A stretch of 30,050 nucleotides of DNA from a virus, in the IMG/VR virus record IMGVR_UViG_3300030107_000416, positions 1-30,050 of that record. One strand, given 5' to 3'. The notes beneath the pieces are model-generated. The model had not been told where the DNA came from. It saw nothing but the letters and a program-made list of their open reading frames with translations, and made no database searches. Shown one piece after another: positions 3,760 through 26,735 of the stretch; within the stretch, counting starts at the first letter, position 1, and every line of letters starts with the position of its first letter. A program made the translations under genes and the position numbers.

Positions 3760-4139
3760 ATTTTGTAGTAAATACAACCCAAGACAAGCAGACATTATTT
3801 AACTACTTAAAAGAGTTAGGAAACGACTATATAGTAAAAGTAAAGAAACAAAGAAACAATAGAAGCAATATGCAGAACAATTATTATTGGGCTTGTATAG
3901 TACAACCATTAGCAAATGAATTAGGATATTTTCCTGATGAAATGCACGACACACTTAAAATAAAGTTTTCAAGTGAATGGCAAAGTATAGACATAAACGA
4001 CAAACAGATAGGACTTCAGAAAGTAAATAGCACAGCTAGAATGAATAGTAAAGAGTTTGAAATATATGCAGACCAAATAAGGATATGGGCAATGACAGAA
4101 CTAGGTATAAGATTAATGCTACCAAATGAATACGAATGA
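3756..4139 (+). CDS. NinB-like recombination protein
   Basis: 127 residues. The pattern NNRSNMQNNYYWACIVQPLANELGYFPDEMHDTLK, followed by an ST motif, EFEIYADQIRIWAMTELGI and a final LPNEYE, matches the NinB (lambda Orf/YbcN-type) family: Q-N-x-Y-W, G-Y-x-x-D-E-x-H, then E-F-x-x-Y-x-x-x-x-x-x-W. NinB proteins bind single-stranded DNA and act in RecBCD-independent phage recombination, linked to the NinG nuclease, which is also present at 1112-1519. The stop overlaps the start of the methyltransferase gene (ATGA). Confidence 0.8.
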   Translation: MNFVVNTTQDKQTLFNYLKELGNDYIVKVKKQRNNRSNMQNNYYWACIVQPLANELGYFPDEMHDTLKIKFSSEWQSIDINDKQIGLQKVNSTARMNSKEFEIYADQIRIWAMTELGIRLMLPNEYE

Positions 4140-4774
4140 AGATACTTAATTTATATGCAGGTATAGGTGGTAATAGAAAGTTATGGGGAGATGACCACGA
4201 AATAACAGCAGTAGAAATAAATAAAGACATTTCTAAAATATATAAAGATTTTTATCCTAATGACAATGTAATAGTGGCAGATGCACACGAATATTTAAGA
4301 TTTAATTTTAAAAATTATGATTTTATATGGAGTAGTCCGCCCTGTCCAACTCATTCAAGATTAAACTTTTCTAGCAGATCAAGAGGTAAAGAATATAAAT
4401 ATCCTGATATGAAGCTTTATGAAGAAATTATTTTTTTAAAAACTTGGTTTAAGGGAAAATGGATTGTAGAAAATGTAAGAAGCTATTATGAACCTTTAAT
4501 AAAACCTCAAGAACTATCAAGACATTATTTTTGGACTAATTTTTTAATGCAAAAAATTAATATTAAAAGTGTAATAGTAGGTAATAATAAAAATAATACA
4601 CTAGAACATAAAATGAAAGAAAGAAATATCTATATTAAAAATTGGCACAATTACAAAGGAGATAAAAGAACTTTGCTAAATAATTGTGTAGATAGTAAAA
4701 TTGGTTTACATATTTTAAATGCAGCTCTAGGAATTATTAAAGCAAATAACAGTCAGCAAAATAAATTGTTCTAA
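4136..4774 (+). CDS. divergent cytosine-C5 DNA methyltransferase
   Basis: 212 residues, about half the usual size of a bacterial C5-methyltransferase. Motif I is LNLYAGIGGNRKL (residues 4-16), motif II has VEIN with Glu27, and motif IV is WSSPPCPTHSR with the catalytic Cys at 70 in PPC. Motif VI is VENV (111-114). A recognisable motif VIII (QxRxR) and a separate target-recognition domain are missing; in their place stands SRHYFWTNF. The reaction would be transfer of methyl from S-adenosylmethionine to cytosine C5 in DNA, probably protecting phage DNA from host restriction. I have seen this short form in phages, but specificity cannot be read. It is the last gene before the packaging block. 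Confidence 0.75.
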   Translation: MKILNLYAGIGGNRKLWGDDHEITAVEINKDISKIYKDFYPNDNVIVADAHEYLRFNFKNYDFIWSSPPCPTHSRLNFSSRSRGKEYKYPDMKLYEEIIFLKTWFKGKWIVENVRSYYEPLIKPQELSRHYFWTNFLMQKINIKSVIVGNNKNNTLEHKMKERNIYIKNWHNYKGDKRTLLNNCVDSKIGLHILNAALGIIKANNSQQNKLF

Positions 4775-4790
4775 TTTCTATTATATAGTA
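4775..4790 (+). promoter_or_regulatory. late-gene element, copy 1 (TTTCTATTATATAGTA)
   Basis: One of five copies of a shared element with invariant core TCTATTATAT, all lying between genes. This copy is 27 nt upstream of the small terminase ATG. TATTAT matches a -10-like hexamer in five of six bases, so a promoter is the simplest reading, but no conserved -35 or -33 box is seen. Confidence 0.6.
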
Positions 4791-4794
4791 CAAC

Positions 4795-4806
4795 TTGATT
4801 AATCAA
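4795..4806. promoter_or_regulatory. perfect 12-bp palindrome before the terminase genes
   Basis: TTGATTAATCAA is a perfect inverted repeat without spacer, lying between the late element and the small terminase ATG. A dimeric regulator or the small terminase itself could bind here; either is inference. Confidence 0.4.
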
Positions 4807-4817
4807 ATTATTTCAAA

Positions 4818-5075
4818 ATGAATACACACGGAGGTAAAAGAATAGGTGCAGGTAGAAAACCTAAAGCAGATGAACAAAAGCTAATAGAGAAACTTACACC
4901 TTTAAATGAATTAGCATTAGATTCATTAAAAAAAGGATTAGAGAAAAAAGAACAATGGGCAGTTAAGTTATACTTTGAATATTTTTATGGTAGACCACAA
5001 CAAAGGGTTGATGTTACAACTAATGAAGAAAGTCTTAATATGCCATTAATAAACTTTGTAAAAACTGAATCTTAA
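4818..5075 (+). CDS. terminase small subunit (TerS-like)
   Basis: 85 residues. It begins NTHGGKRIGAGRKPKADEQK, the GGxRxGAGRKPK motif found at the start of many phage small terminases, followed by a helical region (NELALDSLKKGLEKKEQWAV, then KLYFEYFYGRPQQ) and a short tail. TerS recognises phage DNA and hands it to the large subunit; it usually acts as a ring in the infected cytoplasm. At 85 residues it is short for the family. It overlaps the large terminase frame by about 11 nt, and a late element plus palindrome precede it. Confidence 0.8.
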   Translation: MNTHGGKRIGAGRKPKADEQKLIEKLTPLNELALDSLKKGLEKKEQWAVKLYFEYFYGRPQQRVDVTTNEESLNMPLINFVKTES

Positions 5076-6267
5076 CGAAAAATATAATCCATTATTTGAA
5101 TCTGATGCACGTTATTTTATAATAACAGGTGGTAGAGGATCAGGAAAGTCATTTGCTGTAACAGTATTTCTAACACTACTTACAATGTCAGCAAACATTA
5201 GAGTATTGTTTACACGTTACACTATGGTGTCAGCACATCTATCAATAATACCTGAGTTCCTAGAAAAGATAGGTCTATTAGGATTTGATGATATATTTAA
5301 TGTAAACAAAGCTGAAGTAGTAAATACTAAAAACAATAGTGATATATTATTTAGAGGTATTAAGACATCAGCAGGAAACCAAACTGCAAGTTTAAAATCA
5401 TTAACAGGTGTTTCTAATTGGGTGCTTGATGAAGCAGAAGAATTAACAGATGAAGATATATTTGATACTATTGATTTAAGTATTAGAGAAAAAGATATAC
5501 AAAATAGAATTATACTTATATTGAATCCTGTTACTAAAGAACATTGGATATATAATAGGTTCTTTCAAAACAAAGGCGTAGAAGCAGGTTTTAATGGCGT
5601 TAAAGACAATGTATGCTATATCCATAGTACATACCTAGACAACATAGAAAACCTCTCTAAGAGCTTCCTAGAGCGTGTAGAAGCTATAAAGCATAGGAAC
5701 TTTAAGAAATACAAGCACAAAATACTTGGTGGATGGTTAGACAAGGCTGAGGGTGTAGTATTTGAAAATTGGAGTATAGGAGAATTTAATCCTGACAACC
5801 TACAAACATCTTGTGGAATGGATTTTGGTTTTAGTGTTGATCCTGATAGTCTTGTAGAGGTAGCAATAGATAAAAGAAAAAAGAAGATGTATCTTAAAGA
5901 ACATATATATCAAAATGGTTTAAAATCACACGAATTAGCGCAGATAGTTTTAGATAAGGTAGATAATAAACTTATTATAGCTGATAGTGCAGAACCAAGA
6001 TTAATTGAAGATTTAAGACATTTAGGAGTTAATATAAAACCTGTAAAAAAAGGAACAATAGAAAGTGGAATAACAAGGATGCAAGATTATGAATTAATTG
6101 TATCACCTGAATCTATAAACATAGCTAAAGAATTAAACAATTATGTGTACGCAGATAAAGGAAGTAAGTTGTATGTAGATGCATACAACCATAGTATTGA
6201 TGCCTGTCGTTATAATGTTATTTATCATTTAGATAATCCTAATTATGGTAAGTATTTTGTACAGTAA
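5065..6267 (+). CDS. terminase large subunit (PBSX-type ATPase/nuclease)
   Basis: About 400 residues. The first in-frame ATG (5185) would cut off the ATPase loop, because codons upstream encode NPLF..DARYFIITGGRGSGKS with Walker A at residues 22-29. The frame is open back to a stop at 5059-5061 and holds no ATG, GTG or TTG before 5185, so I place the start at CTG 5065 (or a +1 shift out of the small subunit). Walker B is WVLDEAEE (119-126, Asp122/Glu123). The nuclease domain has Asp253 (GMDFGFSVDPD), Asp307 (IIADSAEPR) and Asp379 (NHSIDACRY). The protein pumps DNA into the prohead and cuts it. Domain order and motifs fit the PBSX/Terminase_3 group. Confidence 0.9.
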   Translation: MNLNEKYNPLFESDARYFIITGGRGSGKSFAVTVFLTLLTMSANIRVLFTRYTMVSAHLSIIPEFLEKIGLLGFDDIFNVNKAEVVNTKNNSDILFRGIKTSAGNQTASLKSLTGVSNWVLDEAEELTDEDIFDTIDLSIREKDIQNRIILILNPVTKEHWIYNRFFQNKGVEAGFNGVKDNVCYIHSTYLDNIENLSKSFLERVEAIKHRNFKKYKHKILGGWLDKAEGVVFENWSIGEFNPDNLQTSCGMDFGFSVDPDSLVEVAIDKRKKKMYLKEHIYQNGLKSHELAQIVLDKVDNKLIIADSAEPRLIEDLRHLGVNIKPVKKGTIESGITRMQDYELIVSPESINIAKELNNYVYADKGSKLYVDAYNHSIDACRYNVIYHLDNPNYGKYFVQ

Positions 6268-6319
6268 ACCCCCAAAGATAATAATGTAAACGACAAGAGA
6301 AGAATTAGGGGATTTACTG
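6262..6319 (+). other. long imperfect hairpin at the end of the terminase gene
   Basis: CAGTAAACCCC (6262-6272) pairs with GGGGATTTACTG (6308-6319): 11 base pairs with one bulged A and a loop of about 35 nt. It spans the terminase stop codon. C5 and G4 runs are rare in this AT-rich DNA, which makes the match stand out. No U-tract follows, so a simple intrinsic terminator is unlikely; an mRNA processing or stability element is possible. Confidence 0.4.
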
Positions 6320-6372
6320 AACTTAATAAAATGAAGTAGCAAATATAATTATTTTAAACTAAAAAACAACTT

Positions 6373-6388
6373 TTTCTATTATATAGTA
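6373..6388 (+). promoter_or_regulatory. late-gene element, copy 2 (TTTCTATTATATAGTA)
   Basis: Identical over 16 bases to the copies at 4775 and 18435. Only one base separates it from the ATG at 6390. If TATTAT is the -10 box, transcription would start at or next to the ATG, giving a leaderless or nearly leaderless mRNA for the tail chaperone. Confidence 0.6.
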
Positions 6389-6389
6389 T

Positions 6390-7034
6390 ATGAAGGTCAA
6401 AATTAAGAAGCAGGGCAAAGTAAAAGAGTTCAAGCTAATAAAAAAATGGTCAGATGTAACTCTTGAAAAATGGCTAAAACTAATAGACTTTCATAAAGGA
6501 AGTAAGAGTAGTGAGGCGACAGAAACAATAGCAGTTTTATCTGATATTCCAAAGAAGTTAATAAAGCAATTGGAATTAAAAGATGTAGCAGTTATAATGA
6601 GTAACATTGCTGAACTACAAAAGAAGCAAAATAGTTCTTTAAAAAGAGTAATTGAAGTAGAGGGTAAGGAATATGGATTCCATCCTGATTTGGATAGTAT
6701 AACATTAGGTGAATATGCAGACATTGAAACATTTATAAAAAATGGAATTGAAAATCATTTACCTGAATTAATGGCGATACTATATAGACCAATAATGGAG
6801 AAAGGAGAAAATGGAGTCTATACAATACAAGCGTATGATGGCAATATACGGATTAGGACAGAGCAAATGAAAAAGATGTCAGCAGAACAAGTGCAAAGTG
6901 CATTGGTTTTTTTTTATCATTTCGGGAACGTATTGTTAACGACTTTGCCATTGTATTTGATGGAACGGCTGAAGGAAATGAAGATGCAGTTGCAACAGAA
7001 TCCTTCGCAGAAAAGTGGGGATGGTTTGGAGTAA
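6390..7034 (+). CDS. tail assembly chaperone, zero-frame (short) form
   Basis: 214 residues. The N-terminus (KFKL-like EFKLIKKWSDVTLEKWLKLI) and the later ITLGEYADIETFIK, PELMAILYRPI and SALVFFYHFGN segments look like Bacteroidetes-phage tail assembly chaperones acting on the tape measure; assignment rests on pattern and on the frameshift described next. After nine consecutive T residues (6907-6915) the zero frame suddenly uses codons rare elsewhere here (CGG, CTG, TCG, CAG, many TTG), while the -1 frame there uses normal codons. This is expected where two frames are both read. The gene stops at TAATG, where ATG 7034 lies in the -1 frame. A late element abuts the start. Confidence 0.7.
   Translation: MKVKIKKQGKVKEFKLIKKWSDVTLEKWLKLIDFHKGSKSSEATETIAVLSDIPKKLIKQLELKDVAVIMSNIAELQKKQNSSLKRVIEVEGKEYGFHPDLDSITLGEYADIETFIKNGIENHLPELMAILYRPIMEKGENGVYTIQAYDGNIRIRTEQMKKMSAEQVQSALVFFYHFGNVLLTTLPLYLMERLKEMKMQLQQNPSQKSGDGLE
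6908..6914 (+). other. probable -1 ribosomal frameshift site (T TTT TTT)
   Basis: In the zero frame the codons read GTT TTT TTT TAT, so positions 6908-6914 form a classic slippery heptamer U UUU UUU. The -1 frame is open from here to 7171. Slipping would join 175 zero-frame residues to 85 residues of the -1 frame (about 260 in total), the lambda G/GT arrangement conserved in long-tailed phages. Confidence 0.65.
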
Positions 7035-7171
7035 TGTATAGATTAACAAATGGTGAAATAGTAAATTTAGAAAGAATAACAAATCTTAGCTTGTTAGAAT
7101 GTTTAACTTGGCTAAGTTATGAAACAGATTTAAATGCACAAAATAAAGTAAAATATGGCAGTAAACAATAA
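6914..7171 (+). CDS. tail assembly chaperone, -1 frame extension (GT-like T domain)
   Basis: The -1 frame encodes 85 residues from the slip site to TAA at 7169-7171. The stretch TESFAEKWGWFGVMYRL followed by TNGEIVNLERITNL and ECLTWLSY is clearly protein-like and resembles the second domain of chaperones in Bacteroidetes phages. The part before ATG 7034 (which codes FAEKWGWFGV) has no ATG, GTG or TTG, so it can only be translated by frameshifting. A shorter 45-residue form could also start at ATG 7034. The end overlaps the next gene by 17 nt. Expected role: the minor fused product that binds the tape measure during tail assembly. Confidence 0.65.
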   Translation, partial: LSFRERIVNDFAIVFDGTAEGNEDAVATESFAEKWGWFGVMYRLTNGEIVNLERITNLSLLECLTWLSYETDLNAQNKVKYGSKQ

Positions 7172-7703
7172 GACATATAATAACGTAGTAAACACAATAG
7201 CTAGACTAGGTGAATACCACGAACAAATATCAACAGTATCTATTGGAGATATATATGATATTTCTTTGGAGAAGCTTGAAAAATATCCACTACTTCATAT
7301 AAATCCTGTAAACGTAACAACAGGAGATAGTGAGTTGGTTTATAACTTTCAATTATTCATAATGGATATGGTAAGTGAAAAAAGTGAATGGCAAACTGAA
7401 CAACATTCATTACTTACTAAATTAGTAAACACTAAGAATAACGAACAAGAAGTATTTAATCAATGTTTAGAAATAGCAACAGACTTTATAGGAATGTTAA
7501 GACATAGTTCAAGACAATCATTAGAGGGAACAAATGATATTAATGCACCACTATATTTTACACAAGATCAATTTACAATAGAACCATTTAGTGAAAGGTT
7601 TGATAATCTATGTTGTGGATGGGTGTTTAACATAGGTGTTAAAGTTATGAATGACTTTGATACTTGTAATATTCCTGTAACTAATGCAGGAGCAGGATAT
7701 TAA
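7155..7703 (+). CDS. virion/tail protein of Bacteroidetes-phage type
   Basis: 182 residues. The pattern EYHEQISTVSIGDIYDISLE, KYPLLHINPVNV, NFQLFIMDMV and a late C-C-G-W segment (NLCCGWVFNIGVKV) is a recurring layout in tail regions of Bacteroidetes phages; a tail terminator or completion role is possible by size and position. Overlaps the chaperone extension by 17 nt, and a TAATG junction follows. No catalytic motif seen. Confidence 0.65.
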   Translation: MAVNNKTYNNVVNTIARLGEYHEQISTVSIGDIYDISLEKLEKYPLLHINPVNVTTGDSELVYNFQLFIMDMVSEKSEWQTEQHSLLTKLVNTKNNEQEVFNQCLEIATDFIGMLRHSSRQSLEGTNDINAPLYFTQDQFTIEPFSERFDNLCCGWVFNIGVKVMNDFDTCNIPVTNAGAGY

Positions 7704-7768
7704 TGAAATTTAAAATAGGAAAATATACAATAGAAATAGGATTTTTTAAAATAACAATAAAATTATAA
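7703..7768 (+). CDS. possible 21-residue peptide
   Basis: ATG overlapping the previous stop (TAATG) opens a 21-codon frame: MKFKIGKYTIEIGFFKITIK then Leu and TAA. Alternating charged/aliphatic residues suggest a beta-type peptide. It fills the 67 nt between two virion genes exactly, in the manner of other coupled genes here, but at this length chance is a real alternative. Confidence 0.3.
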   Translation: MKFKIGKYTIEIGFFKITIKL

Positions 7769-7770
7769 AT

Positions 7771-8220
7771 ATGGCAGATTTAGTAACAACAATAAGTGAA
7801 AGCGTAACCTTAAATGGTTCTGTAAGAGGTTCATCTAATTCATTGACAACAACAGGAGTTGTAGATGTATTTGAAAGAATCTTAACTTGCACACATTCAC
7901 AAACAACAACAGTTGCAGTTTTTAACTCAACACCACACGGAGCAGCAGGTGCATTAGATGTAGAAAATTGTAAATATTTAAGAGTAACAAATTTAAGTTC
8001 AGACCAAGATATGAAATTAGCTTTAGTAACTGCTAACACTAATTATCAAGTAACTGTAAGAGCAGGAGGTTCACACGTTTTATTTCAAGCAGAAAACGCA
8101 CTTATAGGTGAAGAAGATGCAAGTCCTGCATTTCCAACACTAGAAGATATTGTTACTGTACAAGTAAGACCATCAGCAACAACTGATGTACAAGTAGAAG
8201 TGTTTGCAGGATTAGTATAA
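7771..8220 (+). CDS. beta-rich virion protein
   Basis: 149 residues rich in Thr, Ser and Val with alternating patterns (TTISESVTLNGSVRGSSNSL; LRVTNLSS; VTVQVRPSATTDVQVEVFAG), typical of a beta-sandwich virion protein such as a minor tail or decoration protein. No enzyme motif. Lies in the tail block and joins the next gene by TAATG at 8218-8222. Confidence 0.6.
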   Translation: MADLVTTISESVTLNGSVRGSSNSLTTTGVVDVFERILTCTHSQTTTVAVFNSTPHGAAGALDVENCKYLRVTNLSSDQDMKLALVTANTNYQVTVRAGGSHVLFQAENALIGEEDASPAFPTLEDIVTVQVRPSATTDVQVEVFAGLV

Positions 8221-8795
8221 TGAAAACTGAAAATTTAGAAAGGTACTTAAATTCTTTTGGTAAAGAAGTAGTTAAAAATGCTAGAAAAAACTTATCTAAA
8301 GCAGGAAAAGGTGGAGGTAAGTTGGAGCAATCAATAAAATTTCAAGTGGTTACTGATACTGATGGTTTTAAAGTACAATTCTATATGGCAGATTATGGAA
8401 CATTTGTAGATAAAGGAGTTAAAGGAGCAGGTGGTAAAATTAAGTCAGGAAAACATAAAGGAACTTGGGGTGGAAGAAGGCATTATATAACTTGGCAAGG
8501 CAAAAGAAAAGATAGTCCATACAAATTTGGTAGTGGAAAAGGAAAAAAAAATGGAATATATAAAGGTATTGGTTCTTTTATAAGAAAAAAGGGATTGCAA
8601 CCAAGAAGTGAGGGTGGACAATTTATGACAACAGCAGGATTAAAAATAGCAATAGTTAAAGTATTATGGACAAAAGGAATACACGGAATAAGTTTTTTTC
8701 AAAAGTCTTTAATGCTTGGAATGAAACAATTTGGTAAAGACTTACTAAGTAATGTAAAAGAAGATATAATAGCAGGATTAACAACAGTAAAATAA
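8220..8795 (+). CDS. tail completion (HK97 gp10-like) candidate
   Basis: 191 residues, very basic. It starts with a helix and a KNARKNLSKAGKGGGKLEQSI segment, followed by MADYGTFVDKGVKGAGG, and ends with a helix (GIHGISFFQKSLMLGMKQFG). An N-terminal helix, a Y-G-x-F-V-D-x-G-V-x-G turn and a C-terminal F-F-x-x-x-L helix are seen in HK97 gp10-type tail completion proteins; the central Gly/Lys-rich stretch is longer than usual. Assignment is by pattern and position only. Confidence 0.5.
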   Translation: MKTENLERYLNSFGKEVVKNARKNLSKAGKGGGKLEQSIKFQVVTDTDGFKVQFYMADYGTFVDKGVKGAGGKIKSGKHKGTWGGRRHYITWQGKRKDSPYKFGSGKGKKNGIYKGIGSFIRKKGLQPRSEGGQFMTTAGLKIAIVKVLWTKGIHGISFFQKSLMLGMKQFGKDLLSNVKEDIIAGLTTVK

Positions 8796-10216
8796 TGGCA
8801 TATTCAAATTCAACAATAGAACAACAACCTTTATATACTCAACTACCTGTTGGACAGGAGGTTATATTTGTAGTATCTAATGCACCAATAGTGTCAGCAG
8901 AAACAAAGGTTAAGTATTGTGCAGAAGTACACATAAGTGATTCAACACCACCAAATCCATCAGTAGCAACTGATTTAATTGGAACATTTAAAACAACACC
9001 AAATGCAACAGGTGTAGGGATTTTTGATTTTAGAAATGTTGTAGAAAATTATGTTTCAGCAGATAATTTAGCAGGAACAGGTAGTTCATACAAAACAAGT
9101 GTTGTAACAGCAAGTAATTCAAAACCTTTGCATTTAATAGATAAGTATTCTACAAATACAAATAGTGCTAGACATTTAGTAATACAATTTTATGTTGAAT
9201 ATTTAGGTGCTGATCCGTTAAGACCAACAATAGTATCAAAAGCTGCAGGAACTTCTGTTAATTCAAGTAGATATACATTATTTAATGGTTATCTAAAACA
9301 TACTGATGTATTGACACTTGGAGGTAGCACTAATCCTTTTGATTTTGGATATAGTTTAAGTAGTTTTAATTTATCATCTAGTTCAGATAAATTTCTTACT
9401 AATGCGCCTAAAACCCAAGATTGTAATATAAATGACTATGGAACTATTGCGTTTTTAGCACCAAATGATAATGTTAATGAATTTCTTTTAACTTATTTTG
9501 CTTCTGATGGTTCTACATTAGGAAGTGAAAGTGTTTATAAAACTTCAACAAATGGTGCTTATGATACTTTTACTGCTGATGTAAAAAATAGAATACTATA
9601 CTTTGGATGTTTTCCAGGAAACCTACAAAATTGGTCAAGCACATTTAGTGGAGCATTGTTCCTTGCAGGTATAAAAGGAGGTTCTATAAGAGTACAAGCA
9701 AAAGATTCAGGTGGTGGAAGAATTTCATCAGCATATACTATTAATGTAAATTGTGATGAATTAAAAGGTTATGAAAGCATAAGACTTTGTTGGTTAAATC
9801 AATGGGGTGCCTGGGATTATTACACATTTACTAAAAAATCAACAAGAAATATAACTACACAAGGGACTACATACAATCAATTAGGAGGAACTTGGAATGA
9901 AAGCAGATATAGAATAGATAGTTACAAAGGTGGTAAGAAAGCATTTAGAGTTAATGCTATGGAACGTATATCTATGAATACAGGTTTTATAAGTGAAGAT
10001 TTTAATACAATGTTAGAAGAATTAGTTAATAGTCCTGAAGTTTATATGTTAGAGGGTTATCAATCAGATGGAGCATCTTCAGCATTAAATCAATATGTAA
10101 CGCCTGTAAGACTTACAACATCTAACTTTACAAGAAAGACAATAGCTAACGATAAATTAATTCAATATACCTTTGAAGTAGAAAAAAGTAAAACACTAAG
10201 AACACAGGCAGTATAA
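8795..10216 (+). CDS. large tail/baseplate structural protein
   Basis: 473 residues. N-terminal QEVIFVVSNAPIVSAETKVKYCAEVHISD and FDFRNVVENYVSADN, then a C-terminal half with LCWLNQWGAWDYYTFTKKS, form a recurring layout in tail-tip proteins of Bacteroidetes phages (a conserved W-L-N-x-x-G-x-x-D-x-Y-x-F block). No catalytic motif. Between tail completion-type and tail-tip genes, coupled to both by TAATG. Probably part of the distal tail or baseplate. Confidence 0.65.
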   Translation: MAYSNSTIEQQPLYTQLPVGQEVIFVVSNAPIVSAETKVKYCAEVHISDSTPPNPSVATDLIGTFKTTPNATGVGIFDFRNVVENYVSADNLAGTGSSYKTSVVTASNSKPLHLIDKYSTNTNSARHLVIQFYVEYLGADPLRPTIVSKAAGTSVNSSRYTLFNGYLKHTDVLTLGGSTNPFDFGYSLSSFNLSSSSDKFLTNAPKTQDCNINDYGTIAFLAPNDNVNEFLLTYFASDGSTLGSESVYKTSTNGAYDTFTADVKNRILYFGCFPGNLQNWSSTFSGALFLAGIKGGSIRVQAKDSGGGRISSAYTINVNCDELKGYESIRLCWLNQWGAWDYYTFTKKSTRNITTQGTTYNQLGGTWNESRYRIDSYKGGKKAFRVNAMERISMNTGFISEDFNTMLEELVNSPEVYMLEGYQSDGASSALNQYVTPVRLTTSNFTRKTIANDKLIQYTFEVEKSKTLRTQAV

Positions 10217-12951
10217 TGAGCATACAACTTATAGTATATCCACAATCTTATGATGGTTCATTTAATCCAATAGTAGGAGCTTCATCACAATTTATTGTAG
10301 ATGGAATTAATTTTACTACTATAAATACATCAACATCAAGTTTAAATTTATCTACACCAACATATACTAATGCTATTAGCAATATGGGTGTAATACCAAT
10401 TAATACTTGGTATAGATTTAGTGGAGATGGTACAGCAGTAACAGAATCATCAGGAGCAATAACAATAGGTGCGCAAAGGGGTGTAATACAACAATTATCT
10501 AATTTATCTGTTGGAGCAAATTATAATGTTACAATAGATGTAGGTACTTATGCGTCAACATTACAATTAAAACACTACACAGGTACAATATTAAGAGGAA
10601 CATTTCCAATAACATCAGCAACATCAACAACTATTCAAATTGAAGCATATTCAACTTCTGATACTATTTTAATTTATAGTACAGCAACAAATGTTATTAA
10701 TAGTATATCTGTAATGCCTACAAGTATAGCACCATCAGGAGGAATTAATTTTTTAGGAACGGATGGTCAAGTAATATGTGATTTATATGAAGATGAAGAT
10801 ATCCCATTAAGTTTAAGTGTTGATGATTTTAAAAATGTTGCAGAAAAAGTTCAATCATATTCTAAAGCATTTAACTTACCAGGAACTAAAAGAAACAATA
10901 AGATATTTGATAATCTTTTTGATATAACAAGGTCAGATGATGGTGTTATTTTTAATCCTTATGTAAAAACACAATGTAAACTAAAGCAGGATGGTTTTAT
11001 ACTTTTTGAGGGTTATTTAAGAATGATAGACATTCAACAAAAGCAAGGTGAAATAAGCTATAATGTAAATTTGTATTCTGAAGTAATAGCATTAGCAGAT
11101 GTGTTAGGAGATAAAAAGTTTGCTGATATAGATTTAGAAGAATTAGATCACGCATATAATAAAACAAACATTAAAAATAGTTGGAATGAAAGCGGTACAG
11201 GAATTAGTTATTATAGTTCAAGCACATCAGGATTTAGAGATGATTATTCTACTTTAAAATATCCTTTTGTTAATTGGAACAATGAATGGATAATTGCTAA
11301 TAATCCTGGTGGAAGTGTAGGGGCTACTGATGGATTTCCACAACTTAAAACATTAGAACAAGCATTTAGACCTTTTATAAATATTAAATATTTAATAGAT
11401 AGAATATTTAACCAAGATGATGTTCCTTTTACTTATGAAAGTACATTTTTTGATACTACTGATTTTAAAAAATTATATATGGACTTTAATTGGGGTTCTG
11501 ATGATTTTCCAACCCAATTAGAAACAAGCACTTTTTCAGGCTATTACTTTTATCTTGTAGGAGATGGTAGTGCATCAAATTATGCTACAACATCTTATGA
11601 TGTAATGAATTTAAGTTATAATGTACCATTGGTTGGTGGATTAACACCACCTAATTATGATGATGCAACAAATATTATAACATCAACAGCAGTAAATGAA
11701 CATTACAACATACAATACACCTATAATATAGAAAATACAGATACAGTTGATAGAACTATTGAATGTAGATGGTTACACGAGGCACTTCCATTAAATTATT
11801 CAGGGGTTATAACTATCCCTGCTAATGGTGGAGTATTTACTTATACAGGAACAGTAAGTGTTTTGATGGCTACAATAGGAGAAACTTTAAAAGTTCAATT
11901 TAAAACAAATAGTGGTACAGCAAGTAAAGTAAGACAATTACAAAATAGTTTTCCAAATAATGGGGCTACTGTAGTATTTAATGTAGGTATACAATCAGCA
12001 ACATATAGTACATTTGTACAAACAGCAAGAGGTGAAATTGGACAATGGAATTTTTTAAAAGGATTAATGACAATGTTTAATTTAGTTAGTATACCTGAAA
12101 AAAATAATCCTAACCATATTAAAATAGAACCTTATAATGATATATTCTTAGAAAATTCAGATAGTAAACAATGGAATTGGACAGACAAAATAGATGTAGA
12201 AGAAATGAAGTTAGAACCATTAACTGATTTAAAAAAACATACTATATTTAAGTTTGTAGAAGATGATGATGATTTTGCTTTTCAAAATTACAAACTTCAA
12301 GTTGATGGACATTTATATGGTAGTCAAAAGTGGGATGCATCAACAAACTTTAATGGACAAAAAACTATTTTTGTAGATGAAGAAGAAATAGTAGCAGAAC
12401 CATTTGCAGCAACAGTTATAAAACCCTTAACATCACAATTTAGTGATTTTATTGTTCCTGCTATATATTCTTATAATCCTGATGATGGTACTTCAGAAGG
12501 GTTTGACAATAGTCCTAGAATTATGTATAATAATGGTAAAAAAACATTAACTACTTGCACCTATTATATACCTGCACAAAATGGTTTATCTAGTGAGAAT
12601 CAACCAGACTTTTTACAATTTAGTCATTTAACAGATATACCTACTATAACAAGTATTCCACCTGATGAAACAGACACTAGAGATTTTCATTTTGGTGTAT
12701 GTCAATTAATACCACCTATTGGAGATAGTACGTTTAATAATTTATTCTATCTATATTGGTTTGCATATATTAAAGAATTATATGATGGTAACACAAGAAC
12801 AATGACTATAAAAGTAAATCTAACACCTGGAGATATTTCTACATTTAGATTTTTTGATACAGTAATAATTAAAAATAGAGAATTTAGAGTTAATAAAATA
12901 GACTATAAACCAAACGACTTAGCAACAATAGAATTTATACTTATACCATAA
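10216..12951 (+). CDS. large tail-tip protein with an N-terminal carbohydrate-binding-like module
   Basis: 911 residues. Residues about 55-175 form a beta-sandwich-like module (INTWYRFSGDGTAV, GVIQQLSNLSVGANYNVTID, TNVINSISVMP) that resembles modules in the fibre at 19387-21918. From about 190 comes a tail-tip domain with DIPLSLSVDDFKN, YSKAFNLPGTKRNNKIFD and GFILFEGYLRMIDI, a layout I associate with baseplate/tail-tip proteins of Bacteroidetes phages. The C-terminus ends in beta-rich segments. Probably a structural hub component; a host-surface contact role for the N-terminal module is inference. Confidence 0.65.
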   Translation: MSIQLIVYPQSYDGSFNPIVGASSQFIVDGINFTTINTSTSSLNLSTPTYTNAISNMGVIPINTWYRFSGDGTAVTESSGAITIGAQRGVIQQLSNLSVGANYNVTIDVGTYASTLQLKHYTGTILRGTFPITSATSTTIQIEAYSTSDTILIYSTATNVINSISVMPTSIAPSGGINFLGTDGQVICDLYEDEDIPLSLSVDDFKNVAEKVQSYSKAFNLPGTKRNNKIFDNLFDITRSDDGVIFNPYVKTQCKLKQDGFILFEGYLRMIDIQQKQGEISYNVNLYSEVIALADVLGDKKFADIDLEELDHAYNKTNIKNSWNESGTGISYYSSSTSGFRDDYSTLKYPFVNWNNEWIIANNPGGSVGATDGFPQLKTLEQAFRPFINIKYLIDRIFNQDDVPFTYESTFFDTTDFKKLYMDFNWGSDDFPTQLETSTFSGYYFYLVGDGSASNYATTSYDVMNLSYNVPLVGGLTPPNYDDATNIITSTAVNEHYNIQYTYNIENTDTVDRTIECRWLHEALPLNYSGVITIPANGGVFTYTGTVSVLMATIGETLKVQFKTNSGTASKVRQLQNSFPNNGATVVFNVGIQSATYSTFVQTARGEIGQWNFLKGLMTMFNLVSIPEKNNPNHIKIEPYNDIFLENSDSKQWNWTDKIDVEEMKLEPLTDLKKHTIFKFVEDDDDFAFQNYKLQVDGHLYGSQKWDASTNFNGQKTIFVDEEEIVAEPFAATVIKPLTSQFSDFIVPAIYSYNPDDGTSEGFDNSPRIMYNNGKKTLTTCTYYIPAQNGLSSENQPDFLQFSHLTDIPTITSIPPDETDTRDFHFGVCQLIPPIGDSTFNNLFYLYWFAYIKELYDGNTRTMTIKVNLTPGDISTFRFFDTVIIKNREFRVNKIDYKPNDLATIEFILIP

Positions 12952-13811
12952 TGGCAACAATACCTTATTTAAACGGATATTCAATTAAACCACTTAATGC
13001 AACAGCAACAGGACAAGTGTTGTTTACTGATGGAACAGACCAAGTAATTCCTAATCAACAACAATGCGAAGCGTATGGATTTAGATATGACAAAGCTACA
13101 GGCACTTGTTTCGCTTTTAAATATACTGACCATTTAAGTAGAAGTATAAACAATCAGAACAACAATGTACAAGGGAGTAACAATACAATAGAAACAGGAA
13201 CTAATAACACCTATATAATGGGTGAAAATAATACAGTTAGAGGATTATCAAGAAACAACATAATAGCAGGAGTAAATAACGAAATACAAAACAATATAAA
13301 TAATACATCTGTATTTGGTGTAGGTGGTGATGGCGTGTTTAATAATGCAATGATTTTCGGTGGGAACAATCAAGATGATAGAGTAGGAACAAGACAGACT
13401 ATTAAATTAATGTATGGTGGACAAACAACTAACAATTCAACAGTAGATATATACCCAAATAACTCTTTAAGTGCTTTAGTATTTTTTGAACCTGAAGTAA
13501 ATAGAGTATATTATTTTCAATCAGAAACACTAGCAGTAAGAATAGGGGGTACAAGTGGTTCAGGAGCAGTTGGAGATTTTAAGGCTTGGGTAGAACGTGG
13601 AGTAGTAAAAAATGCAGGAGGTACTTTAAGTATAGACAGATCAAGAACATCACCTGCTGATAATGGTGGTGCTTTGTCAGGATGGTCGCCTATTAATGCA
13701 GTAAGTGGTTCTAATTTTAGGCAAACAGTAAAGGGAGCAAATAATATGACAATAGAGTGGGTAAGCACAATAAGATTTATGCAATTAAGCACAGGTGTAA
13801 CATTACCTTAA
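12951..13811 (+). CDS. fibre-like protein with Asn-rich trimeric-type repeats
   Basis: 286 residues. Residues 62-130 contain repeats of the form N-N-x-x-x-G-x-N-N-x-I (NNQNNNVQGSNNTIETGTNN, MGENNTVRGL, NNIIAGVNNEIQNN), like the left-handed beta-roll repeats of YadA-type trimeric adhesins. The C-terminal part is beta-rich (LVFFEPEVNRVYYFQS). A short trimeric tail fibre or tip protein is likely. Overlaps the upstream tail-tip gene by TAATG and precedes the tape measure. Confidence 0.6.
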   Translation: MATIPYLNGYSIKPLNATATGQVLFTDGTDQVIPNQQQCEAYGFRYDKATGTCFAFKYTDHLSRSINNQNNNVQGSNNTIETGTNNTYIMGENNTVRGLSRNNIIAGVNNEIQNNINNTSVFGVGGDGVFNNAMIFGGNNQDDRVGTRQTIKLMYGGQTTNNSTVDIYPNNSLSALVFFEPEVNRVYYFQSETLAVRIGGTSGSGAVGDFKAWVERGVVKNAGGTLSIDRSRTSPADNGGALSGWSPINAVSGSNFRQTVKGANNMTIEWVSTIRFMQLSTGVTLP

Positions 13812-13823
13812 AAAAATAAAGAT

Positions 13824-15293
13824 ATGGCAAATACAACAGAAACAGCAACATTTAATGTAAAATCAAATATAGGTGAAGTAACTAAAGATGCCGCAGGATT
13901 AGCAGGAGAATTTAAAATAATGGGCGTTTCTTTAAATTCTGTTAAAGCAGGATTTGTGTCAGTTGGCAAAACAGCAAAAGCATCATTTGCAACTATAAAG
14001 GCAGGAATAATGTCAACAGGGATTGGAGCATTATTAATAGCAGTAACTTCATTAATATCTTATTTTACAAATACTAAAAGGGGAGCAGACCAGTTAGACC
14101 AAGCATTTACGGCAATGGGAGCAACTATTGATGTAATAAAAGATAGATTAAGTAAAGTTGGTGAAGCATTGTCATTTGTATTTTCAGGAAAATTTAGAGA
14201 AGCAGGAGAAGCATTGAAAGGTACTTTTTCAGGTATTGCAGATGAAGTAGAAAGAGAGGTTGCAGCAATGGTTGCTTTAAAGAAAAGAACACAAGAACTT
14301 AGGGATGCTGATATGGAGTTTATGGTTCAAAAGGCAAAAACTAGACAAGAAATTGAAAAAGCTAGATTAATTGCAGAAGATGAAACAAAGTCAGCATCAG
14401 AAAGATTAGAAAATCTAAAAAAAGCATTAGAGCTAGAAGCAGAAACAACACAAGCAGAATTGGTACTTGCTAGAGAAAGAATGAAGATTCAGGAAGAAGA
14501 AATGGCATTAAGCGAAAATTCGGCAGAAGATGAGCAAGAATTAGCAAGACTAAAAACAGAAATTATAGAAAAAGAAACAGCGTCTATAAAAATGCGAAGA
14601 AGGGTTGTTACTGAAGTTAATGCATTAGAAAGAGAAATACAAGCAGAAGCAAAAGCTAGAGCAAAAGAAAAACAAGATATACTAGATGCTGAGATTGCAG
14701 CACAAATAAAAGCAAATGATGAATGGAATAAAGCACAAGAAGAAAAGTATAAAAAAGAAGTAGAAGAAGCTAAAAAAGCAGCAGATGAAAAAATAGCAGA
14801 AGCAAAAAGAGTAGCAAAAGAAGAAGAAGATATTGCTAAAGCTGTTGAAAGTGCAAAAGAAGGATTAATAAGACAAGGGTTTGGAATAGCACAAAGTTTA
14901 GCAGGAGAAAATGCAGCTTTATCCAAAGGGGTTGCAGTAGCACAAACAGTTTATTCTACTCAACAAGCAATAATGGCAGCTTTAGCAGCGACTTCTGTTG
15001 GTGATAAATTACTACCTTATCCTTTAAGATTAGCAAACGCAATAGGAGCAGGATTAATGGGTGCGATTGCTGTAAAAAAGATATTATCTACAAGCCCAAC
15101 AGGTGGAGGTACTGATAGTGTAAGCACACCATCAGCTACAACTCCTTCAACACCTGCACCACAAATGATGTCAGGAGCATTTGAATTAACAGGAGGACAA
15201 GCGCCTGAACCATTACGTGCTTATGTACTTACTGATGAAATGACTAATAGTCAAAACCAATTAGCAAACATAAGACGTAGAGCAACAATATAA
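13824..15293 (+). CDS. tail tape measure protein
   Basis: 489 residues. The N-terminus (FKIMGVSLNSVKAGFVSVGKTAK) leads into a hydrophobic segment near 58-82 (AGIMSTGIGALLIAVTSLIS). A long charged coiled coil follows, from about 150 to 350, rich in Ala/Glu/Lys (EAKARAKEKQ and similar). A second hydrophobic region (about 365-415) has AQTVYSTQQAIMAALAATSV and LANAIGAGLMGAIAV, then a Thr/Pro-rich linker. This layout is that of tail tape measures, which set tail length and move through the tube at infection. At roughly 0.15 nm per residue, the tail would be about 70 nm, consistent with a siphovirus. Confidence 0.8.
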   Translation: MANTTETATFNVKSNIGEVTKDAAGLAGEFKIMGVSLNSVKAGFVSVGKTAKASFATIKAGIMSTGIGALLIAVTSLISYFTNTKRGADQLDQAFTAMGATIDVIKDRLSKVGEALSFVFSGKFREAGEALKGTFSGIADEVEREVAAMVALKKRTQELRDADMEFMVQKAKTRQEIEKARLIAEDETKSASERLENLKKALELEAETTQAELVLARERMKIQEEEMALSENSAEDEQELARLKTEIIEKETASIKMRRRVVTEVNALEREIQAEAKARAKEKQDILDAEIAAQIKANDEWNKAQEEKYKKEVEEAKKAADEKIAEAKRVAKEEEDIAKAVESAKEGLIRQGFGIAQSLAGENAALSKGVAVAQTVYSTQQAIMAALAATSVGDKLLPYPLRLANAIGAGLMGAIAVKKILSTSPTGGGTDSVSTPSATTPSTPAPQMMSGAFELTGGQAPEPLRAYVLTDEMTNSQNQLANIRRRATI

Positions 15294-15314
15294 AAATCAA
15301 ATAAATATTAACTA

Positions 15315-15330
15315 AATCTATTATATAATA
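15315..15330 (+). promoter_or_regulatory. late-gene element, copy 3 (AATCTATTATATAATA)
   Basis: Shares TCTATTATATA with copies 1, 2 and 5. The final A is the A of the protease ATG, five bases after TATTAT, again implying an mRNA that starts at the initiation codon if this is a promoter. Confidence 0.6.
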
Positions 15331-16052
15331 TGCCGTGTAAGAAATGTAAAGATGGAAAAGTAAAGTGGGGAAACACAGGAGAATGTGAATATGATACTAT
15401 TGCTGAATGTGAAGAAGCAAATAGAGATTATTACGAAAACCTAAAGACTACCTCAATTAAAGAATTAATAATTGCAAATGAAAATGAAGAATTAGCTATT
15501 GATGCTATTTCTTTAGTTTCATCACCTGCTATTGAACAAGATTTTGTTTTTTTTGGAAAAGAAAAGAACAACTTGACTTTAGCAAAAATAGATGAAGAAA
15601 AAAGAATGTTAGTATCACCTGCTTTGATACCTAATAAGCAGATATTTAGATATGATCCAAATACAGATTCAGAATACTATGTATATTTTAGTCCTGAAAC
15701 AGTTAGAAAAGCTAGTGAACTTTATTTAAAACACAACAATCATCATAAAGCAACTTATGAACACCAAGATAGAGTAAGTGGAGTTCTAACAGTAGAATCT
15801 TGGATTAAAGAGGGTGATAGTGATAAGTCAAAGATGTTTGGCTACGACTTGCCTAATGGCACGTGGTTCGTTAAGATGAAGATAGAAAATGATGAATTAT
15901 GGTCAAGAATTAAGGATGGCGAATTAAAAGGGTTATCAATAGAGGGTTACTTTGCTGATAAAATGGAAAAAATGTCAGAAAGAGAACCAACAAATGAAGA
16001 AATATTACACGCACTTAATGAGATAATAAACGAAAATCAAATAAATAAATAA
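15330..16052 (+). CDS. XkdF-like prohead protease
   Basis: 240 residues. The N-terminus carries four Cys (PCKKCKDGKVKWGNTGECEY and AECEEAN; C3, C6, C19, C27), a possible zinc or disulfide knot. The protease part has AIDAISLVSSPAIEQDF, LYLKHNNHHKATYEHQD (His145 in YEHQD), GVLTVESWI, and GLSIEGYF with Ser203. This His-then-Ser layout and the recurring SxVxxPAI motif fit the XkdF-type phage serine protease family, which cleaves scaffold and capsid precursors during head maturation. The scaffold-like and capsid genes follow directly. Which residues form the catalytic set is not certain from sequence alone. Confidence 0.75.
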   Translation: MPCKKCKDGKVKWGNTGECEYDTIAECEEANRDYYENLKTTSIKELIIANENEELAIDAISLVSSPAIEQDFVFFGKEKNNLTLAKIDEEKRMLVSPALIPNKQIFRYDPNTDSEYYVYFSPETVRKASELYLKHNNHHKATYEHQDRVSGVLTVESWIKEGDSDKSKMFGYDLPNGTWFVKMKIENDELWSRIKDGELKGLSIEGYFADKMEKMSEREPTNEEILHALNEIINENQINK

Positions 16053-16054
16053 CT

Positions 16055-16070
16055 ATTCTATTATATTAAA
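16055..16070 (+). promoter_or_regulatory. late-gene element, copy 4 (ATTCTATTATATTAAA)
   Basis: Keeps the invariant TCTATTATAT but diverges after it. It lies 9 nt before the scaffold-like gene ATG at 16080, and 15 nt separate TATTAT from that ATG, so here a short A-rich leader would be transcribed. Confidence 0.55.
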
Positions 16071-16079
16071 AAAGAAACT

Positions 16080-16769
16080 ATGGACATTAAAGAAAAAATT
16101 TTAGTAGCACTTGGCTTAAACAAAGCTGAGGATGAAGTGAAATTAGCTTGGCAATCAAAATCAGAAGATGGAACAATTTTTGTTTCTACTGCTGAAGAAT
16201 TAGAAGCAGGTGTAGATATTTCAGTATTAACAGAAGATGGAACTACAATCCTATTACCTGTTGGAACTTACAAAACAGATACAGGTGTTAGTTTTCGTGT
16301 AGATACTGAAGGTATTGTTGCTGAAGTTATTGAATCAGAAACTGAAGAAAAAGAAGAAGCATCAGAAGAAGTTAAAGAAGAAATGGGCGAAGATAGAGGT
16401 GAAGATGATGATGAAGCAGCAGTTGATGATTGGGAAGGTATGGAGAAAAGAATCAAAAACCTAGAAGATGCAGTATCTGATCTTAAAAGACAAATAGGTG
16501 AAACAGGGGATGTAGAAGAAATGACTGAAGAAGTTGTTGAACCATCTACAAATCCTAAATCAATAAAGACTACTGAAGTAGTTGAGTTTTCAGCAGATGA
16601 TGAAATTGAAAAATTAAAAGCTGAGAATGAAGCGTTAAGAACTGAATTAGCAGAATCCCCTGCTGATGCACCAATTAACACAAATAAATTTAGTTCAGAA
16701 AGACCTTCAATGTCTAAGGCAGAATATAATAGATTGCCTAAGCGTGAAAGAATTTTAATGAATTTTTAA
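16080..16769 (+). CDS. scaffold-like head assembly protein
   Basis: 229 residues, strongly acidic. A small beta-rich N-terminal part (about 20-85, with TAEELEAGVDISVLTEDGTT) is followed by a Glu/Asp-rich stretch (95-125) and coiled-coil segments (KRIKNLEDAVSDLKRQIGE; DEIEKLKAENEALRTELAE). The C-terminus is basic (PKRERILMNF). Acidic coiled-coil proteins between the protease and the major capsid gene usually serve as scaffold, removed by the protease. Identification rests on position and composition. Confidence 0.65.
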   Translation: MDIKEKILVALGLNKAEDEVKLAWQSKSEDGTIFVSTAEELEAGVDISVLTEDGTTILLPVGTYKTDTGVSFRVDTEGIVAEVIESETEEKEEASEEVKEEMGEDRGEDDDEAAVDDWEGMEKRIKNLEDAVSDLKRQIGETGDVEEMTEEVVEPSTNPKSIKTTEVVEFSADDEIEKLKAENEALRTELAESPADAPINTNKFSSERPSMSKAEYNRLPKRERILMNF

Positions 16770-16808
16770 TAAAAAATAACAAAAATAATAACAAAAAAAT
16801 AAAAAATT
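16770..16808 (+). promoter_or_regulatory. A-rich translation leader of the major capsid gene
   Basis: The 39 bases before the capsid ATG are almost only A and T (AAAAATAACAAAAATAATAA and so on, ending AAAAAATTATGG), with no Shine-Dalgarno. Unstructured A-rich leaders mark highly translated genes in Bacteroidetes. Confidence 0.5.
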
Positions 16809-17720
16809 ATGGCTTTTAGCGTAACACAACCAAACTTCAATGGTAAGGCGGCAGGATTTTATATCTCAGCAGCTTTAAAAGAAGCAAAATCTTTAGAGTA
16901 TATGGTGGTTTTAGAAAACATCAAGTATAAAGAGAACATTCAAAAGATGGCAGGTTCATCACTAATAGTAGATAATACTTGTGACTTTACTAGTGCAGGG
17001 AATCTCGCACTTACAGAAGCGACTCTTGAACCAAAATCCTTACAAATAAACCTTGATATTTGCAAGGCAACATTATTAACATCTTGGGAGGCATTACAAA
17101 TGAGAGCAGGTAGAGATGCAGGTTCAGGTGTTTCTTTTGATGACTATGTAATTTCTTATATGGGAGAATTAATAGCAGATGCAACTGAAACTTCTATATG
17201 GCGAGGTACAGCAGGTACAACAGGGGAATTTAATGGATTTATGACTTATTGGTTACTTCCAGGAACAGATGGAACAGTAGTTCAATCATCAGCTTCAGCA
17301 GCTTATACAGCAGCTAATATCTTGGCTAACCTACAAACTTTTGTAGCGGATATTATTGGTGGTGATACTCTTGATGTATTAGGGAAAGATGATGCTTATA
17401 TCTTTATGAATCCAAAAACTTTCCACTTCTACATTCAAGCATTATCAGCTTTAGGATATGTAAATACATACCAACAACAAGAGTGGAATCCTTTATTTGA
17501 AGGAATAAAAATTGCAGTAGTACCAGGAATGATTGATAATCAATTATGTTTTGCCCAAACTTCAAACTTATATTTTGGAACTGACCTACTTTCAGATAGC
17601 ACACGTATATCTCTAATGGATATGTCAGGGCTTGATGGTTCAGACAATATTAGAATGGTAGCGCGTTATACAGCAGGAGTTGTTGCAGGTATCGGTGCTA
17701 ATGTAGCAAGACAATCATAA
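16809..17720 (+). CDS. major capsid protein (HK97-fold type)
   Basis: 303 residues. The order protease, acidic scaffold, capsid is standard. Features include a helical N-terminus (FYISAALKEAKSLEYMVVLE), KMAGSSLIVDNTCDF, the phrase LLTSWEALQMRAGRDAG, and AYIFMNPKTFHFYIQAL with a final IRMVARYTAGVVAGIGANVA. The last pattern (M-x-x-R-Y-T-A-G-V) resembles the C-terminal strand of capsid proteins from Bacteroidetes phages. It forms the head shell. An A-rich leader precedes it and a UUCG-loop terminator follows, fitting a highly expressed gene. Confidence 0.8.
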   Translation: MAFSVTQPNFNGKAAGFYISAALKEAKSLEYMVVLENIKYKENIQKMAGSSLIVDNTCDFTSAGNLALTEATLEPKSLQINLDICKATLLTSWEALQMRAGRDAGSGVSFDDYVISYMGELIADATETSIWRGTAGTTGEFNGFMTYWLLPGTDGTVVQSSASAAYTAANILANLQTFVADIIGGDTLDVLGKDDAYIFMNPKTFHFYIQALSALGYVNTYQQQEWNPLFEGIKIAVVPGMIDNQLCFAQTSNLYFGTDLLSDSTRISLMDMSGLDGSDNIRMVARYTAGVVAGIGANVARQS

Positions 17721-17736
17721 TAAACTTAATTCAAGA

Positions 17737-17758
17737 AGTGGGTGCTTCGGCACTCACT
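17737..17758 (+). terminator. hairpin with UUCG loop after the capsid gene
   Basis: AGTGGGTGC-TTCG-GCACTCACT forms nine base pairs (one G-U) closed by a UUCG tetraloop, an unusually stable loop. The following CCTTTAACCTT is only a weak U-tract, so it may terminate partly or protect the capsid mRNA 3' end. Confidence 0.75.
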
Positions 17759-17785
17759 CCTTTAACCTTAAAAAAATAAAAAAAT

Positions 17786-18352
17786 ATGGCTTGTACAGCG
17801 TTAACAAAAGGTAGAGGACTTGATTGTAATAGAATTAGTGGTGGAATAAAGTTTATATATTTCGCAGTTTATGACCAAGTAACTTCAATACCAACAGCAA
17901 ATGGTGAAATTACTGATTTAGAAATGGGTAGTAATATGTTGTATAGATACACAATGCCACTAGGTGTTGCTAGTCTTACAGATACTATTACAGGTTCAAG
18001 AGAGAACGGAACAATCTTTTATACACCAACAGTAAATATTATACTTAACAGACTGACTAAAGAAGATCAGAATGAAATAAAATTATTAGGACAAACTAAA
18101 GTTATTATATTTGCACAATTAAACCAAACAGTAACAGCAACAGGACACGATACTATTGTGTGTTTAGGTAGTGTTAATGGAATGGAACTTAATGCAGGTA
18201 CTATGGATAGTGGAGCAGCGTTTGGAGATAGAAATGGTTATACTTTAACCTTTGATGGTTTAGAGCAACAACCATTCCAATTTGTGCCTGACTATACTAC
18301 TAATCCATTTGATAATGGTGGATTTACATTAGGAGGTGTAGACAGCAACTAG
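17786..18352 (+). CDS. candidate major tail tube protein
   Basis: 188 residues. It begins ACTALTKGRGLDCNRISGGI and IKFIYFAVYDQV, with a central ILNRLTKEDQNEIKLLGQTK and a C-terminal AAFGDRNGYTLTFDGLEQQP. Two early Cys, a GGI strand and the D-x-N-G-Y-x-L-T-F block recur in virion proteins of Bacteroidetes phages, for which tail tube is the likely role; I cannot prove it. It lies between two hairpins (17737-17758 and 18383-18406), as a highly expressed single gene would. Its separation from the chaperone and tape measure genes is unusual. Confidence 0.55.
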   Translation: MACTALTKGRGLDCNRISGGIKFIYFAVYDQVTSIPTANGEITDLEMGSNMLYRYTMPLGVASLTDTITGSRENGTIFYTPTVNIILNRLTKEDQNEIKLLGQTKVIIFAQLNQTVTATGHDTIVCLGSVNGMELNAGTMDSGAAFGDRNGYTLTFDGLEQQPFQFVPDYTTNPFDNGGFTLGGVDSN

Positions 18353-18382
18353 ACTTGGTAGTTTTCATATATTTCTTAGATT

Positions 18383-18406
18383 AGGGTGGGCATTGTCCAC
18401 CTTTTT
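18383..18406 (+). terminator. intrinsic terminator
   Basis: AGGGTGGGC-ATT-GTCCACCTT forms a nine-pair stem (two G-U) with a three-base loop, followed by TTTTT within CTTTTTCTTTT. It is a clear Rho-independent terminator and is followed 29 nt later by late element copy 5. Confidence 0.85.
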
Positions 18407-18434
18407 CTTTTAATAAGCAAATAAAAACGGAGTT

Positions 18435-18450
18435 TTTCTATTATATAGTA
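18435..18450 (+). promoter_or_regulatory. late-gene element, copy 5 (TTTCTATTATATAGTA)
   Basis: Identical to copies 1 and 2 over 16 bases. The last A is the A of ATG 18450. It stands directly after an intrinsic terminator, so genes downstream need a new transcription start here; this is the best contextual support for the element being a promoter. Confidence 0.7.
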
Positions 18451-26666: not shown

Positions 26667-26689
26667 TATTAACATTAATATTGTTAATA
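26667..26689. promoter_or_regulatory. inverted repeat in the early control region (operator candidate)
   Basis: TATTAACA-TTAATAT-TGTTAATA: eight-bp perfect arms and a 7-nt spacer, giving centres suited to a dimeric regulator. It lies 15 bases upstream of the TTG box of the promoter. The region 26576-26762 holds no gene otherwise. An ACTAGA/TCTAGT pair lies further upstream but is shorter. Confidence 0.45.
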
Positions 26690-26704
26690 ACTTTGTGTGT
26701 AAAG

Positions 26705-26735
26705 TTGTGTATAACAATATTTTTTTATATCTTTG
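26705..26735 (+). promoter_or_regulatory. Bacteroidetes-type promoter for the early operon
   Basis: TTG at 26705-26707 and TATCTTTG at 26728-26735, spaced by 20 nt, match the Bacteroidetes consensus TTG-N17-23-TAnnTTTG. Transcription would begin near 26741, leaving a leader of about 20 nt before ATG 26763. It drives the replication genes to the right and needs only the host sigma factor. Confidence 0.8.

Follow-up and report, generated by a model that had tools for sequence, protein, structure and literature searches.

This locus raises the question of what is done by a short AT-rich sequence that stands in five copies ahead of packaging and virion genes of a phage, and which polymerase would read it. 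An exact search of the window (the whole analysed stretch, a virus record of 30,050 bases) with the 10-mer TCTATTATAT located five + strand copies, at 4777-4786, 6375-6384, 15317-15326, 16057-16066 and 18437-18446, all of them in short gaps before genes. The initial annotation had counted and placed these copies in the same way, but the coordinates it quoted for them were 2 too low. Its claim that chance would give few copies was supported by 100 dinucleotide shuffles, in which both strands together held a mean of 0.57 copies of TCTATTATAT (maximum 3). The 16-mer TTTCTATTATATAGTA common to copies 1, 2 and 5, the distances from TATTAT to the ATG (33, 7, 5, 15 and 5 nt in map order) and a terminator before copy 5, consisting of a hairpin at 18383-18403 followed by TTTCTTTTAA, were also found as it had described them. 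Gene 16080, which follows copy 4, stands upstream of the major capsid candidate. One further copy of TCTATTATAT on the - strand had been overlooked; it was ruled out as a sixth site, as its upstream half scores -28 bits and thus lacks the -35 half described below. A comparison of the window DNA with named phages gave no near match, and a scan with the sigma-70 consensus was uninformative (74 matches versus 81 in shuffles). The features are collected in Table 1.

Table 1. Coordinates of the promoter elements and associated features in the window; functions and RNA starts are predictions.
Feature	Position	Strand	Details
Likely phage ECF-like sigma factor, 191 aa	1890..2465	+	Region 2-like and region 4-like helical domains, flexible linker
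Putative late promoter 1, before TerS 4818	4757..4790	+	-35 box 4757-4766; -10 region 4775-4787; predicted RNA start 4790; leader ~28 nt
Putative late promoter 2, before gene 6390	6355..6388	+	-35 box 6355-6364; -10 region 6373-6385; predicted RNA start 6388; leader ~2 nt
Putative late promoter 3, before head protease 15330	15297..15330	+	-35 box 15297-15306; -10 region 15315-15327; predicted RNA start 15330 = A of ATG
Putative late promoter 4, before gene 16080	16037..16070	+	-35 box 16037-16046; -10 region 16055-16067; predicted RNA start 16070; leader ~10 nt
Antisense 10-mer copy inside gene 16080-16769	16724..16733	-	Judged a bystander
Intrinsic-terminator-like hairpin with T-rich tail	18383..18413	+	Just upstream of putative late promoter 5
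Putative late promoter 5, before gene 18450	18417..18450	+	-35 box 18417-18426; -10 region 18435-18447; predicted RNA start 18450 = A of ATG
Predicted tandem host-type (Bacteroidota sigma-A) promoters, head of early operon	26688..26735	+	TAACTTTG 26688-26695; TTGTG (26706) with TATCTTTG 26728-26735

The element had initially been described as having no common -35 box, and a phage-modified polymerase acting on a -10-only promoter had been proposed; neither view was upheld. All five copies carry AA[AC]TAAA exactly at -18 to -12 from the motif start, a pattern whose frequency is 0.0014 over all window positions and 0.0087 over the noncoding ones. An alignment of 123 distinct copies displayed a second conserved block at -20 to -10, (T/C)(A/C)AA(A/C)TAAAT, at constant spacing, and the full bipartite element in the relatives reads (T/C)(A/C)AA(A/C)TAAAT-N8-TTTCTATTATATAnTA. 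A matrix built from the relatives only returned exactly the five window sites, at 23-37 bits, and nothing else of 8 bits or more on either window strand. As the relatives' copies of any one site are not independent of each other, two stricter checks of the -35 box were employed, namely the AA[AC]TAAA count given above and matrices derived from single sites: that from the TerS site ranked all five window sites in the top 0.3% of window positions and that from the gene 6390 site ranked all five in the top 1%. The box reads AAC in some copies and AAAT in the others, and the overall layout is that of ECF-type promoters (AAC-like -35, spacing of ~16-17 nt, short -10), the window type having [AC]AA[AC]T at fixed spacing. 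Since this -35-like box recurs at fixed spacing in each of the five copies as well as in the relatives, the evidence argues for a two-box promoter used by a small ECF-like sigma factor rather than for a -10-only promoter.

Conservation of the element was assessed in 80 TerL relatives taken from viral_contigs. On their + (coding) strand, TCTATTATAT occurs 148 times where a Markov model predicts 4.7; the opposite strand has 30 copies (a strand ratio of 148:30), which are devoid of the upstream box. Long ORFs on the + strand contain none of the 148 copies, and coding-strand copies inside genes, which the initial annotation had named as a refuting result, were not seen when both strands of the window and the relatives were searched for the exact motif. 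As judged by matrix score, the element is present before TerS in 88 of 92 loci, before gene 6390 in 114 of 115, before the protease in 18 of 19 and, with the window counted, before gene 16080 in 4 of 4 and before gene 18450 in 2 of 2; it was found before TerL in 0 of 123 loci and before the portal gene in 0 of 26. Scanning viral_contigs for the bipartite pattern gave at least 83 instances, and all 83 examined lie 11-25 nt upstream of the ATG of an ORF; among the matches listed, 81 of 83 fall in contigs encoding relatives of the window phage. On these comparisons, the element is very likely the late promoter of these phages, which form a large uncultivated marine group, probably infecting Bacteroidota. 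A search of genome_contigs gave no host: it yielded one phage-like contig placed in a 'Euryarchaeota' MAG and one weak match to a MAG of Bacteroidetes. The MAG titled Euryarchaeota archaeon SP3063 includes a 29-kb contig of the window's phage group, probably through a binning error.

The position of the RNA start was derived from the spacing between element and start codon. The ATG is found 13, 15-16, 23 or 41-43 nt from the motif start, with clusters at 13, 15-16 and 41-43 nt in the relatives, the last being that of the TerS sites, which have the same boxes; an ATG closer than 13 nt almost never occurs (one case, 11, in gene 6390). T12 and A13 are conserved (86% and 94%, respectively) also in copies whose ATG is more than 24 nt away. 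The floor at 13 together with this conservation places the predicted RNA start at motif position 13, and the T-A at positions 12-13 likely marks the transcription start. The ATGs of gene 6390 and the protease were accepted as the true starts because third-position variability begins at codon 2 in both, and because in-frame stops in gene 6390 are found mostly 3-9 nt upstream of the ATG. Predicted leaders in the window are ~28, 2, 0, 10 and 0 nt in map order: position 13 would be the A of the ATG in two of the five cases (protease 15330 and gene 18450) and would lie 2 nt ahead of it in a third (gene 6390), and the mRNAs of TerS 4818 (~28 nt) and gene 16080 (~10 nt) would be leadered. Leaderless or near-leaderless initiation, a call that follows from this geometry, is thus likely at three of the five sites, those of genes 6390, 15330 and 18450 with leaders of 0-2 nt, as had been proposed. 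In structures of Mtb sigma-L, the initiating base lies ~5 nt past the -10 element according to our own reading of PMC6372665, and this spacing fits if C1 of the motif is their -14, a correspondence that is assumed here.

Leaders exceed 10 nt in 87% of the transcripts predicted for F. johnsoniae (PMC6847099). At most gene starts of the window, the stretch 7-17 nt ahead of the ATG is enriched in A-rich words (AAATAAA, TAAAAAA), as it also is in Polaribacter phage P12002L; this is consistent with leadered, Shine-Dalgarno-free translation. No motif at a fixed distance from the start codon was detected by a k-mer test in Riemerella phage CRP6 or in P12002L, where nothing but A-rich words or variable distances was seen; this negative result is weak, as the same test is not sensitive enough to flag the five sites of the window.

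The suggestion that the phage encodes a sigma-like protein was borne out by sigma matches of the gene family concerned. Of 61 loci whose upstream sequence was long enough, 60 have the gene; members of the family match Sigma70_r4_2 (best E 3.7e-7), 42 of 75 match PHROG sigma factors at E <= 0.01, and the window protein by itself reaches Sigma70_r4 at E 0.038 only. Its AF2 model comprises a helical domain (residues 1-95), a low-confidence linker (~96-126) and a second helical domain (127-190), the arrangement of an ECF sigma with region 2, region 4 and a linker only. ECF sigmas are among its best PDB fold matches (probability 1.00, best full-length E 2.2e-3); TM is low, as the two domains have no fixed arrangement. 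Region 2 aligned with the Nonlabens phage sigma family in hhalign (E 2.2e-4, probability 45%) and gave no significant Foldseek match on its own; a PDB profile search with the family found nothing above chance, and tblastn found no named phage carrying this sigma. Motif variants sit mainly in genomes with diverged sigma genes (AUC 0.95-0.96). Sigma divergence as the sole predictor of these variants was rejected, the same relation being seen for g2458, g7155 and g10216, although not for TerL, and since several other genes diverge alongside, this relation is consistent with the assignment and not decisive. The protein is, by remote homology, likely an ECF-like sigma factor that reads the element.

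The relatives continue from 29.9 kb of the window straight into its position 1, and the map is therefore circular or permuted; positions 1-178 and 29858-30038 of the window hold slightly different versions of the C-terminal part of the same gene. The early operon extends from ~26.76 kb round to 4.77 kb and includes the sigma gene, and promoter sites of the type at its head recur in several relatives. The Bacteroidota sigma-A consensus is TTTG/TAnnTTTG (PMC6847099). TAnnTTTG at -7 is absent from all five late sites; in + strand gaps it occurs at the early operon and once more as TAAATTTG at 1530, there without a -33 TTG. A DNA methyltransferase-like gene (4136-4774), present in only 8 of the loci compared, lies just ahead of the first late promoter. 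In the TerL segment at 5065-5184 of the window, none of the 122 loci compared offers an ATG ahead of the Walker A motif GGRGSGKS; all 122 have an in-frame CTG (at 5065 in the window, overlapping the end of TerS) and 26 have a TTG upstream, which suggests that translation of TerL begins at a conserved CUG or follows a frameshift out of TerS.

Taken in order, host sigma-A would read the early promoters at ~26.7 kb, and the early operon would produce the phage sigma. Host core RNA polymerase carrying this ECF-like sigma would then most likely read the late element, composed of the -35-like (T/C)(A/C)AA(A/C)TAAAT, a -10 region TTTCTATTATATA and the T-A start site, and would thereby open the late operons, each headed by the element. 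Since the predicted start in many cases coincides with the first ATG or immediately precedes it, mRNAs for packaging and virion proteins are probably made by the phage sigma with leaders that are very short or absent. The sequence itself shows a pair of boxes at fixed spacing, with their positions, conservation and strand specificity, as well as a sigma-like protein; the identity of the polymerase, the precise point at which RNA begins, the timing and the leaderless translation are inferred. Recognition by the phage sigma is likely, the pairing of sigma and promoter being deduced, and the reading as a whole, late promoters for a phage ECF-type sigma that yield mostly leaderless or near-leaderless mRNA, is considered probable on sequence grounds.

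A second lineage was found in the Nonlabens phages. Phage P12024S, whose host is IMCC12024 and whose sigma is gp33, contains no copy of TCTATTATAT; it has exactly seven AAAAC-N16/17-CGTTA[AC]T sites (0.03 in simulations), all on the + strand and each leading into an annotated ATG, at 179, 3031, 5412, 21280, 23961, 25201 and 26802, and this motif also has the ECF-type promoter layout. A member of the Nonlabens sigma family passes the Pfam Sigma70_r2 cut-off, and among named phages this sigma was found only in the Nonlabens phages. Different sigma proteins and different letters in the same layout indicate a parallel sigma-promoter plan in the two lineages. It appears somewhat more probable than the contrary that two Bacteroidota-type phage lineages each combine their own ECF-like sigma with a private promoter code of the same geometry, both starting transcription on the AUG.

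Four other explanations were weighed. Bacteroidota possess many ECF sigma factors of their own, and the late promoter could be read by a host alternative sigma, or by sigma-A with a phage activator, the sigma-like gene doing something else. The remoteness of the phage sigma match and the SigW-like geometry of the Nonlabens version would accord with this. However, the bipartite pattern occurred once in 198 cellular genomes, sampled from one phylum (that of a Bacteroidetes MAG), versus five times in the 30 kb here, which makes use of a host sigma look unlikely. The sigma-like gene is moreover present in nearly all loci (60/61), two phage lineages with different letters each have their own sigma, and the TTTG/TAnnTTTG boxes are missing at the late sites and present at the early operon, so that this explanation was judged unlikely. 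A similarly low probability was given to a promoter as described whose RNA start lies further up- or downstream, with mRNAs that are not leaderless: the exact start rests on geometry only, yet T12-A13 is conserved independently of the ATG and the ATG distance has its floor at 13.

The element could instead act in RNA, as a processing site or translation enhancer at the 5' end; it is AU-rich and near start codons, and cleavage would also give short leaders. Against this stand the upstream box at fixed spacing, the TerS sites with the same boxes at 41-43 nt, the copy at 18437 directly after a terminator, the lack of the element at most other genes, which have A-rich stretches in its place, and, for the genes at offset 13, its location upstream of the predicted RNA; an action of this kind is very improbable. 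Chance AT-rich repetition of no function was rejected as having almost no probability: the 10-mer is AT-rich and has one bystander copy on the opposite strand, but the comparative data contradict this reading (148 copies versus 4.7 expected in the relatives, strand bias 148:30, none in coding-strand long ORFs, fixed ATG offsets). A late promoter read by the phage's own sigma was accordingly retained as the preferred interpretation.

The late promoter of T4, TATAAATA, is an AT-rich late -10 element used with a small phage sigma-like protein, gp55. T4 late promoters have no -35 box, whereas that of the window element is conserved. Sigma gp36 of phiEco32 serves middle and late promoters with tAATGTATAtA, and the late motif lies 6-8 nt before the RNA start (PMC4281155). 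phiEco32 resembles the window phage in its small phage sigma (annotated as ECF in phage SU10), AT-rich -10 and several late promoters per genome (PMC4281155, PMC4331800), and placement of promoters on start codons is not reported in the passages concerned; it differs in its motif and its enterobacterial hosts, the clear -35 box being a feature of the window phage. The B. subtilis SigW promoter, TGAAAC-N16,17-CGTA (PMC2375139), shares the AAAC-type -35, the 16-17 nt spacing and the short -10, and the Nonlabens version is near-identical to it in layout; the window element differs in that CTATT replaces CGTA and the -10 region is long, AT-rich and conserved, and it serves phage late genes whereas SigW serves stress genes. 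Bacteroidota sigma-A promoters (-33 TTTG / -7 TAnnTTTG) are used by the same phages at the early operon, and the late element differs from them in lacking the -7 consensus. TA-led leaderless bacterial genes, with TANNNT ~10-12 bp before the start codon, likewise have a -10 box directly ahead of the ATG, interpreted as leaderless (PMC3160421), whereas the window has a dedicated two-box promoter in Bacteroidota-type phages. A phage-encoded sigma with its own late promoters is thus already known, as in phiEco32; what is distinctive here is that transcription would begin on the start codon, that the setting is Bacteroidota and that two lineages have parallel sigma-promoter codes.

In the literature searched, no late promoters of Bacteroidota phages were found, and late gene control in these phages is little described. 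The present analysis names a concrete late promoter and a likely sigma factor for a phage group with hundreds of metagenomic members, and small sigma-promoter pairs functional in Bacteroidota would also be useful laboratory tools. In a phylum where translation is not dependent on Shine-Dalgarno sites, it predicts late mRNA without leaders, and the prediction is directly testable in a cultivated relative, Nonlabens phage P12024S, with its seven such sites. If the reading of two parallel lineages is true, late mRNAs would bypass the A-rich leaders apparently used by most other phage genes.
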